NCBI GenBank assembly: GCA_027574665.1
Contig: CM050659.1
Location: 501,001 to 565,000 of the forward strand
DNA from: Rhynochetos jubatus
Lineage: Eukaryota; Chordata; Aves; Eurypygiformes; Rhynochetidae
DNA: 64,000 nt
Direction of reading: 5' to 3'
Shown here: positions 1-64,000 of the stretch, piece after piece
How the letters are laid out: the number at the start of each line of letters is the position of its first letter
How positions within the stretch are numbered: the first letter of the stretch is position 1
The notes under the pieces: generated by a model
Told to the model about the DNA's origin: nothing
Database searches by the model: none
Seen by the model: the letters and a program-made list of their open reading frames with translations, nothing else
Program-made: the position numbers and the translations under genes

Positions 1-458
1 CCCAGGCGGAATGAAGTTGGAGATGGGGAGGGAAGAGGCCGAGCAGACACTTCAGCTTGCAAGTCTCCGGCCCTTGGACAAATTCATGGCATTTGACATT
101 TGGAGTACCACAGCCCAGCTTTGTTGCCGGGATACCTGTGCTCCTGCTGCTTTTCCCTTCCTTCCTTCCTTCCTTCCTCCCCCCAGTTTCTAGGCAGCCC
201 TTCCGGCTTCCTGGAAGCCCTTCGCTCCTGCCAAGTGTGGCTGCATTAGGCCGGGAGGCAAGAGAAGTGTTGGTGGCTCAGGGCAGGGGAGTTTGTGCTG
301 GGAATGTGGCCCGGGATGTCTTGACGCTGCCGTTTCTGCTTCCCCTTCGCCAAGGTCCGTGATGAAAACGGGCATGCATTTCTAGCCGCCTCCCCGTGCA
401 GGTGGGTGCCGCAGCGGCAGACAAGCCTTCAGCCTAGGTTTTTTCTCTTTTGGTTTAG

Positions 459-1208
459 AATTCCGTCCGGCACAACCTCTCCTTCAACAAATGCTTTGTC
501 AAGGTGCCTCGGGAGAAGGACGAGCCAGGGAAAGGTGGCTTTTGGAAGCTGGACCCCCAACATGCTGAGCGGCTGAAGAAAGACGCTTTCAGAAAGCGGA
601 GGGTGTCCCTGCAAATCCACCCGGCCCTCACCAGAAGAGTCCGGCAAGCGGCCCAGGGCGTTGCCGGCCCCGCCGCTGTCGTCTGCACCGTCGAGAGCAT
701 GCTCAGCGTCGACAAAGAGTCGCAGAAGCTGCTGGAAGAGTTTGAAGCAATGACCGGCGAGCACCAGTGGAGTCCGGCAGGTGGCAAAGCAGGGCAAAAA
801 CGCAAGCTGCCCTCACCCAAACGCATGGCCAAGGCATCTCGGCTTTCCAATTTGGCCTTGGCGACGGAGGAGCAGGCCTTGCCGGCTGAAGAGCAGGCCT
901 TGCCGACGCAGGAGCAGGCCTTGCCGACGCAGGAGGAAGAGGACGACCTGATGTCGCTGCAAGGGGCCTTTGACTGGGACTCCATCCTCAACGCCAGCCT
1001 GGATATAGACTTGTCCGTTTTTGAGGATGTGAAGTTCACGCCTCCAGGCAGCCCCGTACCACGCAACCCGGACCTGACGGTACGCGGGCACCAGGTGGAC
1101 GCTGTCCAGGGGCAGGAGCAGGGGCAGGTCCTCACCGAGTCCAGCCAGACCGACCTGGGCTTGGGAGGAAGCCCTGAGGGCCGCTTCTTTCCTGGGGCTC
1201 CACTGTGA
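459..1208 (+). CDS. FOXJ1: FOXJ1-like forkhead protein, exon 3 only (5' part outside window)
   Basis: The terminal coding exon of the leftmost copy follows the acceptor ttttggtttag at 458. It opens in phase 0 with [13 protein letters not shown], the recognition helix of the forkhead domain, then [14 protein letters not shown]. The matching exon 2 lies left of the window. The heptad tract (867-929) has only three repeats, the shortest state, shared with the copy ending at 60415. The 3' UTR differs from the other copies at two sites (cctggcag and cccatgc near 1314-1336, where the others read cctgtcag and cccacgc). The shared G insertion is at 1163-1165 and the out-of-frame conserved tail runs to a TGA at 1308. 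Confidence 0.85.
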
Positions 1209-1440
1209 TGAAGGGACAAAGCTCGATGTCCTCAGCGTGGATCTGTTGGAGAACGTCCCTTTGCCCCTGGATTGGAATGACTGGAGCAGTGTGGCAGCCC
1301 TCTTCTGAGAGGCCTGGCAGCATTTGAAAGCCCATGCAGGCTCCTTTTTAGGGGGGTGGGGTGTCCCGAGGCCAGCAAGCAAGGGCCATGTCTCTGGGGG
1401 GGGCTTTGGGGATAGATAGGTGATGTTGAAAGAGGTTTGT

Positions 1441-1446
1441 TATAAA
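1441..1446 (+). promoter_or_regulatory. Candidate poly(A) signal TATAAA (left-edge copy)
   Basis: TATAAA is a known weak variant signal. It lies 233 bp after the annotated stop and is followed by a GT-rich stretch (tgtggttgtaaat, ttggttgtcctctgttttt) suited to a downstream element. No AATAAA or ATTAAA was seen in the unit. Confidence 0.5.
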
Positions 1447-1479
1447 TCTTTGTGGTTGTAAATCTTGATCACTTGGTTG

Positions 1480-2040
1480 TCCTCTGTTTTTCTGGTTTGG
1501 GGCCTCTGTGTGGAGGCTGAAATAGGGCAGAGATGCACGTGCCATTGCACCTTTGCCAGGGAAAGTTATCTCTAAGTTTTGACAAAGCAAGAAACGGTCC
1601 GTTTGCCTCCTTCTTTCCCTCCAGCGCTGCCCGTCTGTGTCTGACGCCCTCCCCTGTGGGTAGGGGACATCTCACCAGCCCAGCCCCGGTCCGTGGGTGC
1701 TACCCGCCCCCGTGCGCGGCGGCACGGCAATTCCCCGAGGGGAAACCGAGGCGCAAAGCACCGCCTGCATGGCGATGGTTAGCCAGCAGCTGTGCGGCAC
1801 GAGGGTGGCCCAGTGTCCTGGGAGCTGCTGCCAACGCCTGGCGCATCCTTCCTACGAGGAGCTCCTGGGGGTGATGACAGGCCGTTGGGCAGGGTCATTG
1901 CTCACCCGCGGGGGCCAGGCAGAACCCCCCGGCACCCCCAGCGTCGTCCCTTTGGGCCTTTTGTGGGACTTGATTGAATCGTTCCCTCTTGGGGCTTGTC
2001 TAGGGGTTTTGCGCCCGCTTTTCCAGAAGCTCCCTCCTCT
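1480..2040. other. Intergenic spacer between FOXJ1-like copies
   Basis: The stretch between the presumed cleavage region of one gene and the CpG island of the next. No conserved coding frame, RNA gene or transposon is recognised. It carries the four substitutions most useful for sorting units: ctacccG/A, ctaC/GgaggA, ggccG/Att, and gcttT/Cgc (the last just inside the island). The same spacer follows every copy, about 240-830 bp after each exon-3 stop. Confidence 0.7.
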
Positions 2041-61247: not shown

Positions 61248-61985
61248 CCCGTGAGCTTTGCAAGTTGGGGGTCGTCGCCGGGACGAGGTAAGGGACGGCC
61301 GGACAGCCGCGGTGGCAGAAAGCGGCGGGGGGAGGGGCGCTGCCGAGGGAGGGCTCAGCCGGGCGGCCCGTGCAAAGCCGGCTGTCAGGAGCGGGAGGTT
61401 TGCCCGGGGGAGGGCTCGGTTTTGTTCTTGGAGCTTTCTTCTCTAGGCGCAGTTTCATCTTTACTGATTGCATCGGGACTTTTGTCCGTTGGAGGCCCCC
61501 CCCCGCTCCCCGCTCGCTGCACCCGGCGTTCCTGGGATGGGATCCTCGTTCCCTGCCAGCACAGGAGCTGGCCCGGCTGGGGGGTGACACTGGGGAGCAG
61601 GCACCTGAACGCGGCTGTGGCTGCCCCCAGCCTTGTTTTGGGGGCAAAAAGCCTGTGCTGCGGGAGCGGGGCGGGTAGTCCCGCCGCGCCGCGCTCGCGC
61701 CGCGCTCATGCCCGGCCGGGGCCGGCAGCCGCGTTCAAAGGCTGCAGCCGCGGAGCTCGGCGCCGGCGCTTGCCGGGGCCGGGCCGGGGCCGGGGCCGGG
61801 CCGCGCGCACCCGGTTGCGCTCGCGGGCGCCGCGAGCCCTGGGCTGCCGGTTGGACGGTTGGCGGCGCGAGGCCACAGCTAACGGAAGCTGGACTCCGCC
61901 GGCCGGCGCTGAGGGAGCGTGTGCTTGCGCTGGGTCCGCTGGTCGCCGAGAACCGTTTGAGGGGTAGCAGCAGAGTGACCGCCAG
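61248..61985 (+). promoter_or_regulatory. CpG island and putative exon 1, copy 15
   Basis: Donor at 61985/61986, 743 bp before the ATG at 62728. Confidence 0.6.
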
Positions 61986-62105
61986 GTAAGTGGGGAGCGG
62001 GCAGGGGCGGGGGCGTGTGGAGCTGGAAATTTTGCTCTGCCGGAGACATCCCTGAGCTGGAAATTTTGCTCTGCCGGAGACATCCCTGCGTTGTGAGACA
62101 GCGGG

Positions 62106-62454
62106 GCTGGATTGGGAGCGGCGGGGGTGGGGGGCGCGGAGGTGTGCGGTTTTTTTTTTCTTCTTTCTGACTCTCTTTCTCCAGCCGCAGGCTGGCCGGG
62201 CAGCGCCGGGGCTGTGGGAGCGGGGGGGGGGGGGGGGGGGGGGGGCGGCGGGGGGGTGGGGCGCGGAGGTGTGCGGGGTTTTTTTTCTTCTTTCTGTGTC
62301 TTTCTCCGGCCGCAGGCTTGCCGGGCAGCGCCGGAGTTGTGGGAGCAGCGGGGGGGCGGATGGGGGGCGGCCGCGGAGGTGTCCTTTTTTTTTTTCTTCT
62401 TTGTGTCTCTCTTCCTCCGGCCGCAGGCTGGCCGAGCAGCGTCGGGGTTGGGGT
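62106..62454 (+). repeat. Intron-1 minisatellite, three copies (copy 15)
   Basis: Three repeats, 24-G run. Confidence 0.85.
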
Positions 62455-62727
62455 GAGAGCGGGCCACGGGGGTGCTTACCCGAGGTTCGGGACTGCTAAG
62501 GCCCCCCCCTTGCCAGGGGAGACGTGGCGGCCCTGGTGCACAGCACCCCGGCGACGGGTCTCCCTCGGCGGCGCCGGGAGCAGGCAGTGCCGGCCCTGCC
62601 CACGTGCCGCAGGGTGGCTGCGCCTTGGGGAGCCTCAAAGCCCCTCGATGCTCTTCTTGCAGGCTCTGCCCCACCCTGTCCCTCCCTGTGCACCCTGTCA
62701 GCGCAAGAGCAGCTGAAGGCCCAAGGC

Positions 62728-64000
62728 ATGGCTGGGGCATGGCGGAAGGCAGCAGCGGAGGGAAGGTGGCGGCCCTACGCCGCGCACGAGGTGGACGACG
62801 GCCTGCCCGACGTCACGTGGCTGGAGGACTTCACCGTCACCGATACGGGCATGCCCAGGCCCCCGTACCTCTCCAGAGGCCTGGAACGCCGGGCCTGGGA
62901 TAAGTTGCCCTCCTTTGCTGCCCCGTGCTCGCGCCGGGCCGCTGGCCTGGCACGCATGGGTATTGCCCACCCCCCGTGCACTCCCACCTCTTCTTCCACC
63001 TCCAGGTCCATGCACCGTGCCGTGGCCACGCACCCTGAGGCAACAGAGGACGTCGACTACAAGACCAACGCGTCCCTCAAGCCACCCTACTCCTATGCTG
63101 AGCTCATCTGCATGGCGATGGAAGCCAGCAATCAGCCTAAAATCCCCCCCTCCGCCATCTACAAGTGGATTACCGACAACTTCTGCTACTTCCGACATGC
63201 CAATGCCACCTGGCAGGTAGGAGATTTGGAGACCTCTTGCCTCGTCCCCTCCCGCCACAGGGCTGGCTAGGGCTTTCCACAGCCTCCACCACACAAGGCG
63301 AGGTCTGGCCAGGATGCTGGATCAGACAGCAATGACAAAGAGGTCAGGTGGCCAGGTAAAAACGGGGGGTGGCCCAGGCGGAATGAAGTTGGAGATGGGG
63401 AGGGAAGAGGCCGAGCAGACACTTCAGCTTGCAAGTCTCCGGCCCTTGGACAAATTCATGGCATTTGACATTTGGAGTACCACAGCCCAGCTTTGTTGCC
63501 GGGATACCTGTGCTCCTGCTGCTTTTCCCTTCCTTCCTTCCTTCCTTCCTTCCTTCCTCCCCCCAGTTTCTAGGCAGCCCTTCCGGCTTCCTGGAAGCCC
63601 TTCGCTCCTGCCAAGTGTGGCTGCATTAGGCCGGGAGGCAAGAGAAGTGTTGGTGGCTCAGGGCAGGGGAGTTTGTGCTGGGAATGTGGCCCGGGATGTC
63701 TTGACGCTGCCGTTTCTGCTTCCCCTTCGCCAAGGTCCGTGATGAAAACGGGCATGCATTTCTAGCCGCCTCCCCGTGCAGGTGGGTGCCGCAGCGGCAG
63801 ACAAGCCTTCAGCCTAGGTTTTTTCTCTTTTGGTTTAGAATTCCGTCCGGCACAACCTCTCCTTCAACAAATGCTTTGTCAAGGTGCCTCGGGAGAAGGA
63901 CGAGCCAGGGAAAGGTGGCTTTTGGAAGCTGGACCCCCAACATGCTGAGCGGCTGAAGAAAGACGCTTTCAGAAAGCGGAGGGTGTCCCTGCAAATCCAC
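62728..64000 (+). CDS. FOXJ1: FOXJ1-like forkhead transcription factor, copy 15 (3' truncated by window)
   Basis: Exon 2 is 62728-63216; exon 3 starts at 63839 and runs off the window in frame, inside the region just after the forkhead domain. Heptad number and frameshift status cannot be seen. Intron 2 has the longest CCTT tract (seven TTCC units) and the ttggagatgg allele otherwise found only in the two leftmost units. Confidence 0.84.
63373..64000 (+). repeat. Array unit 15 (partial)
   Basis: First 628 bp of a unit; ttggagatgg allele as in units 0 and 1, seven TTCC. Confidence 0.9.

Follow-up and report, generated by a model that had tools for sequence, protein, structure and literature searches.

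A FOXJ1-derived, gene-bearing macrosatellite beside centromere-like DNA recurs across contigs of the bird Rhynochetos jubatus

What is a head-to-tail run of forkhead transcription-factor genes doing near the end of a bird contig, and are its reading frames maintained or only carried along? We addressed this question in a 64,000-nucleotide window of the Rhynochetos jubatus assembly GCA_027574665.1 (1.33 Gb, 148 contigs), namely positions 501,001 to 565,000 of contig CM050659.1 (C14:501001-565000), which is filled by an array of genes resembling FOXJ1. The structure is a gene-bearing macrosatellite beside centromere-like DNA: the copying of a FOXJ1 segment, its amplification and the recurrence of the array on other contigs were all observed. 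As an explanation we tentatively prefer a pericentromeric macrosatellite built from FOXJ1, whose frame would have been kept by selection and which would most likely be used in the germline.

The window contained 15 copies of exon 1 with its ATG and 16 copies of exon 2, arranged head-to-tail at a spacing of 4.04-4.30 kb. This count agrees with an earlier sequence-only reading, which had claimed at least 16 such copies and an array running past both ends. The second claim was also borne out: the array continues on C14 beyond either end of the window, with at least 19 exon-1 copies on that contig among the matches listed. Fourteen FOXJ1-like genes were complete, and one partial gene was present at either end. 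The genes and representative features of the unit are listed below by window position.

459..1208, + strand: FOXJ1-like gene 1, represented by exon 2 (its exon 1 is upstream of the window)
3394..5330, + strand: FOXJ1-like gene 2, 440 amino acids (aa); coding exons 3394-3882 and 4497-5330
7638..9574, + strand: FOXJ1-like gene 3, 440 aa, the reference copy; coding exons 7638-8126 and 8741-9574
11882..13818, + strand: FOXJ1-like gene 4, 440 aa
16127..18055, + strand: FOXJ1-like gene 5, 440 aa
20335..22271, + strand: FOXJ1-like gene 6, 440 aa
24586..26522, + strand: FOXJ1-like gene 7, 440 aa, NSIRHNLS variant
28833..30769, + strand: FOXJ1-like gene 8, 440 aa
33083..35011, + strand: FOXJ1-like gene 9, 440 aa
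37323..39305, + strand: FOXJ1-like gene 10, 454 aa
41621..43515, + strand: FOXJ1-like gene 11, 426 aa
45826..47808, + strand: FOXJ1-like gene 12, 454 aa
50126..52020, + strand: FOXJ1-like gene 13, 426 aa
54336..56264, + strand: FOXJ1-like gene 14, 440 aa
58571..60415, + strand: FOXJ1-like gene 15, 412 aa
62728..64000, + strand: FOXJ1-like gene 16, exon 2 cut by the window end
10240..11172, + strand: example of promoter and 5' noncoding exon, homologous to the FOXJ1 upstream region; donor GT at 11145
10240, + strand: unit junction between FOXJ1 3' flank and 5' upstream sequence
9136..9301, + strand: example of the 21/42-bp in-frame coding minisatellite of exon 2, the main length polymorphism
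11273..11617, + strand: example of G-rich/poly-T repeats in the 5' intron, period about 111-122

Over ungapped columns, identity among the 15 whole units was 99.8-100%. The coding sequences of the 14 complete genes were all open and encoded 412-454 aa; the size differences came mainly from the in-frame minisatellite of exon 2, in 14-aa steps. Each of the 15 units had a 5' noncoding exon with a GTAAGT donor. The coding intron, which splits the forkhead domain between WQ and NS, had GT/AG splice sites matching those of the FOXJ1 locus in the one copy compared. The intact splice sites noted earlier were thus confirmed throughout for the 5' donor, and in that single copy for the coding intron. The spliced protein matched the Forkhead family (Pfam PF00250, 118.5 bits). 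A Pfam scan at E up to 0.01 returned nothing but Forkhead, and no double-homeobox open reading frame was present.

A single other FOXJ1 gene was found in the genome, on C22 at about 11.228-11.232 Mb in reverse orientation, with a FOXK-like gene ~170 kb away. A degenerate FOXJ1 forkhead motif, searched against the whole genome with 0 mismatches, gave one match, which was at this gene. From characteristic FOXJ1 sequence features, and from the FOXK-like neighbour, the C22 gene is apparently the FOXJ1 orthologue and the parent of the array. The unit is colinear with the C22 locus; the match starts in the upstream region, spans both coding exons and ends in the 3' flank. The ends of the unit join at window position 10240, where FOXJ1-locus position 8225 is followed by position 1682. 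Since the match includes intron and promoter, the array arose from a DNA copy and not from mRNA; the same two features rule out a retrogene origin. The FOXJ1 identity proposed earlier was upheld by the colinear DNA, the intron position and the conserved parts outside the forkhead, all of which make C22 FOXJ1 the closest relative. The C22 gene aligned over most of the array protein. Another FOX family was rejected as the source; forkhead pieces near C2 (two places), C19, C21 and C23 aligned only partly to the array protein. The best solved domains for the array forkhead were FOXK chains. A strict search for the X-box (RFX) motif gave no match in either the unit or the FOXJ1 locus. The parent gene itself (C22:11225000-11234999, L032) is altered at forkhead positions AKLIC, FQH and KGEP, which we take to be usually invariant in FOXJ1.

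Noncoding DNA of the unit differed from the C22 locus by 299 substitutions in 1967 bp. The avian substitution rate is near 2e-9 per site per year, which would place the copying event on the order of 40 million years ago. An intron stretch beside exon 2 (window 12741-12984) was far less diverged than other noncoding DNA (13 of 239 versus 286 of 1728 positions, p=1e-6), which suggests later gene conversion between array and parent.

The C22 gene and the array genes share the forkhead intron, promoter and coding region, but differ in three respects. A 1-bp indel after the shared SQTDL gives the array protein 16 different residues where the C22 protein has 49 further ones; the old FOXJ1 tail is still recognisable in another frame of the unit. 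The array minisatellite is expanded relative to that of the C22 gene. The FOXJ1 3' stretch with two AATAAA signals (locus positions 6868-7713) is absent from the unit. The array protein lacks the FOXJ1 C-terminal tail, and the tail frame was altered in 23 of the 23 array copies read. By its sequence, the array gene is a FOXJ1-derived paralogue, not a full FOXJ1. A kept DNA-binding domain with a replaced tail could make the product a competitor of FOXJ1, e.g. a drive or dosage element in spermiogenesis, which would be a special case of the explanation that we prefer. The forkhead score is consistent with such a role, as is retention of NS-RHNLS, which we take to belong to the forkhead recognition helix. 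However, among the literature matches listed there was no direct paper on activation of transcription by the FOXJ1 tail, and we consider a competitor quite unlikely.

The genome holds at least 177 copies of the array gene. A 43-base coding pattern, allowing up to 3 mismatches, matched 177 times (111 forward, 66 reverse); the reversed control gave 0 matches. Positions from this pattern are those of the first 100 of the 177, in contig order up to C32. In an exon-1 protein search, 150 of the 150 scored matches (of 227 candidates) were open and contained no stop; identity was 100% in 118 of them and 99% in 32. Exon-2 frames of 242-312 aa were found in 104 of the 119 array rows listed. With only 14 informative columns, a tree of 33 unit fragments showed no clean clustering by chromosome.

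On C14 the order is telomere repeats, an arm of ~0.49 Mb, the FOXJ1 array and then a 472-bp satellite. Among the matches listed, arrays occurred on contigs as large as C3 (126 Mb) and as small as C66 (0.28 Mb), and eleven of these contigs fall within C3-C32. This range does not support a sex-linked, dot-only or germline-restricted placement, at which the sequence-only reading had guessed; the male-germline role named in the same guess may still hold. No array was found on C48 (85 Mb; our guess for the Z) among the matches listed, which are incomplete past C32. A 1.5-kb piece from just outside the array had 41 matches: 17 at 99-100% on 16 contigs, and 24 at 89-97% (20 on C20, 3 elsewhere on C14 and 1 on C143). 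Sixteen of the 17 edges had array matches; the C130 edge had none among the matches listed, these lists being incomplete. Arrays were also present at or near the start of C66 and C143. The outer (distal) breakpoint was identical in 8 of 8 flanks compared and the inner (proximal) one in 7 of 7, and these common edges make an independent origin of each array unlikely.

The arrays also have a common position. On C3, C12, C13, C14, C15, C18, C21, C24, C28, C30 and C35 (5.7-126 Mb) the array lay 0.11-0.53 Mb from a contig end, and in all eleven it read away from that near end. On C49, C146 and C148 it lay 0.48-0.50 Mb from one end in the same orientation, which is little informative in contigs of only 1.1-1.2 Mb. 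C32 is an exception: this contig of 7.18 Mb has one array at 1.30 Mb and another at 3.78 Mb. The near ends of C14 (behind 5 kb of N) and C148 carried telomere repeats, and that of C12 carried fewer; the starts of C3 and C21 had none, and other contigs start with N. The recurrence could be an assembly artefact, if one array or a few had been repeated on several contigs or if alternative haplotypes had been taken for separate chromosomes. The surroundings of the two C32 arrays are 99.9% alike over 9.3 kb, the small array contigs C49, C66, C143, C146 and C148 (0.28-1.35 Mb) may be alternative haplotypes, and some contigs begin with N blocks. However, units differ in length and in single-nucleotide polymorphisms (SNPs), arrays differ in variants and copy number, and eleven contigs of 7 to 126 Mb have an array in their interior. 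An artefact is very unlikely in our judgement.

The arm distal to the array is shared as well at the points sampled. A mid-arm 1-kb piece (C14:250001-251000, L060) matched at 22 places on 20 contigs; 21 of these copies were near-identical and one was at 96%. In the 14 places with both, the distance from this piece to the array edge was 240-276 kb in 13 and 313 kb in C130, as expected of a colinear arm; arm sharing here refers to one sampled kilobase and the flank, not to the whole arm. The piece was found without an array edge on C4, C6, C7, C8, C17, C25 and C71, so the arm is more widely spread than the array. In a chicken study, the short arm of 19 acrocentric chromosomes is described as a 5-kb conserved sequence besides repeats only (PMC9974502); the half-megabase arm here is thus unlike that of chicken.

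Two side observations concern possible sources of this shared sequence: the 96% mid-arm copy (C6:44333316) is possibly internal to a chromosome and might be the source of the piece, and C20:16365758-16577801 carries ~16-kb tandem units with array-flanking sequence at about 94-97% identity, a possible source of the flank. Separately, the region between the two C32 arrays (C32:2793179-3162006) contains a dense cluster of PF02422 keratin genes, presumably of the feather type. In a genome search for this family, 150 of 150 scored candidates (of 197) matched and were clustered; such a family and the many small chromosomes are what a bird genome would show.

The 472-bp satellite adjoined the array on its inner side in 7 of 7 inner flanks read. 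It was present at 6 of 6 points sampled over 592-701 kb on C14, and also at L016:2903-10000. A 32-mer from the satellite had 44,860 exact matches, corresponding to about 21 Mb if each marks one unit; the first 100 matches listed all fell in one block at 104.18-104.23 Mb inside C1 (148.6 Mb). The satellite thus appears to be centromeric, probably the main centromeric repeat, and the arms would then be acrocentric short arms.

We compared unit and parent for signs of selection on the coding frame. Over 389 codons, synonymous divergence (dS) was 0.164 and nonsynonymous divergence (dN) 0.110; dN/dS in the forkhead was 0.58. Of the 15 noncoding indels in 1967 bp, 13 were of frame-breaking length, versus 0 frame-breaking indels in 1101 coding bp (p=0.006), and substitutions were fewer in coding than in noncoding DNA (p=0.0003). 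The stretches for the indel test were picked by hand from unit/parent alignment blocks. They exclude three intervals of the window, namely 11766-11881 just ahead of the ATG, the unaligned 12698-12739, and 13974-14045. Also excluded are the minisatellite, the 5' intron repeats, and the tail beyond SQTDL, which contains one frameshift, together with the 3' untranslated region (UTR) as far as 13906; a poorly aligned 63-bp stretch of 3' UTR (30% different) was kept. At half the divergence, the probability of no frameshift would be 0.026, and that of neither frameshift nor stop 0.0017. Past constraint on the array frame is likely from these comparisons.

The strongest alternative is a passive macrosatellite of the same structure and spread in which the gene is dead cargo. 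The frames would stay open as homogenisation recopies one template, and the repeat would persist through recombination or as a structural block. We consider this nearly as likely as the explanation that we prefer, and the following observations weigh against the latter. The overall dN/dS of 0.67 has a bootstrap interval of 0.45-1.01, which reaches neutrality, and the frame and substitution tests include the parent's own branch. Among copies (27-33 per segment), coding sites showed 9 replacement to 4 silent changes, close to the neutral 3.2:1 given by site counts, and SNP density was not significantly lower in coding than in noncoding DNA (13/1155 versus 43/2372, p=0.15). Short exon-2 frames of 161-189 aa were found in 15 of the 119 rows listed, 14 on C32 and 1 on C12; in the three short C32 copies read (L012, L013 and L075) a nonsense codon lies in the minisatellite. 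The tail frameshift is fixed in the array. Close to the telomere, identity between C14 and C12 is no more than 89-93%, indicating that the arms are not uniformly identical.

Two further points on this side concern the poly(A) signal and CpG content. Neither AATAAA nor ATTAAA occurs on either strand of the window. Base composition predicts about 0.1 AATAAA per unit; the absence alone is thus unsurprising, and it is the loss of the parent's signals that counts. A TATAAA is still found 2170 bp downstream of the ATG. In 6 of 7 inner flanks read, no AATAAA occurred in the 6.3-7.8 kb of satellite next to the array; the C66 inner flank (3.8 kb of satellite) contained several. As to CpG, the observed/expected ratio reached 1.03 in the promoter region and was at least 0.59 in 16 of 21 sub-windows of the unit, versus at most 0.50 in 22 of 24 at the parent locus. 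The CpG-island promoters described in the sequence-only reading are thus CpG-rich, but not in a gene-specific manner: the noncoding 472-bp satellite has a ratio of 0.72-0.77, so high CpG marks the neighbourhood and not the gene. Because CpG does not separate gene from satellite, we weighed selection on the frame lower and the passive alternative higher. On the other hand, dead cargo does not readily fit the absence of frame-breaking indels from the coding DNA, the kept forkhead, start codon and splice sites, or an exon 1 that was open in every scored match. Present constraint looks weak or masked by homogenisation, and variation among copies looks near-neutral.

The explanation that we prefer builds on what was observed: a FOXJ1 genomic segment from upstream region to 3' flank was copied as DNA and tandemly amplified. 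The copies may have spread by exchange between acrocentric short arms, and unequal crossing-over together with gene conversion may have homogenised them. The frame would probably have been maintained because a DNA-binding protein resembling FOXJ1, but with an altered tail, was selected for. By analogy with chicken pericentromeric amplicons, the product would most likely be made in the germline (testis), and its output would be limited by chromatin and by lack of a canonical poly(A) signal. If this is true, a developmental master regulator has been turned into a repeat on many chromosomes. The array would then join DUX4 as a system in which to study how genes for transcription factors end up as macrosatellites, and the exchange of DNA between short arms of bird chromosomes could be tested directly. 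Our literature search, which was weak and had most subscription journals outside its scope, yielded no report of a FOXJ1 array in a bird.

The closest known systems are human D4Z4/DUX4, which occurs at 4q, 10q and other loci, and two chicken arrays. Like D4Z4, the array consists of kilobase tandem units that each carry a transcription-factor open reading frame, lying near telomeres and putative centromeres of several chromosomes. Three sources place D4Z4-related copies in subtelomeric, pericentromeric and acrocentric short-arm DNA (PMC12963445), describe a poly(A) site beyond the most distal D4Z4 unit instead of one per unit (PMC5368697), and identify the D4Z4 gene as a homeobox retrogene (PMC3616921). 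In contrast, the unit here derives from a forkhead gene that was copied as a genomic segment, intron and promoter included. An independent DUX4-like system, in which narrow germline expression of the altered product rewires or competes with the FOXJ1 programme of cilia and spermatids, seems to us rather unlikely. The chicken study cited above reports pericentromeric amplicon families, including OR29G with 386 intact copies, and testis bias in 7 of 10 dot chromosomes (PMC9974502). These amplicons resemble the array in being multi-copy intact genes of a bird in pericentromeric DNA, a placement that in our case is probable; they differ in lying on dot chromosomes, whereas the array is one family with common edges that codes for a transcription factor and occupies many contigs, large as well as small. 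The HINT1W array of the chicken W, given in the same source as 52 copies of a 5,648-bp unit (PMC9974502), is likewise a gene-bearing satellite of similar unit size and raised GC, but is W-linked and built from another gene.

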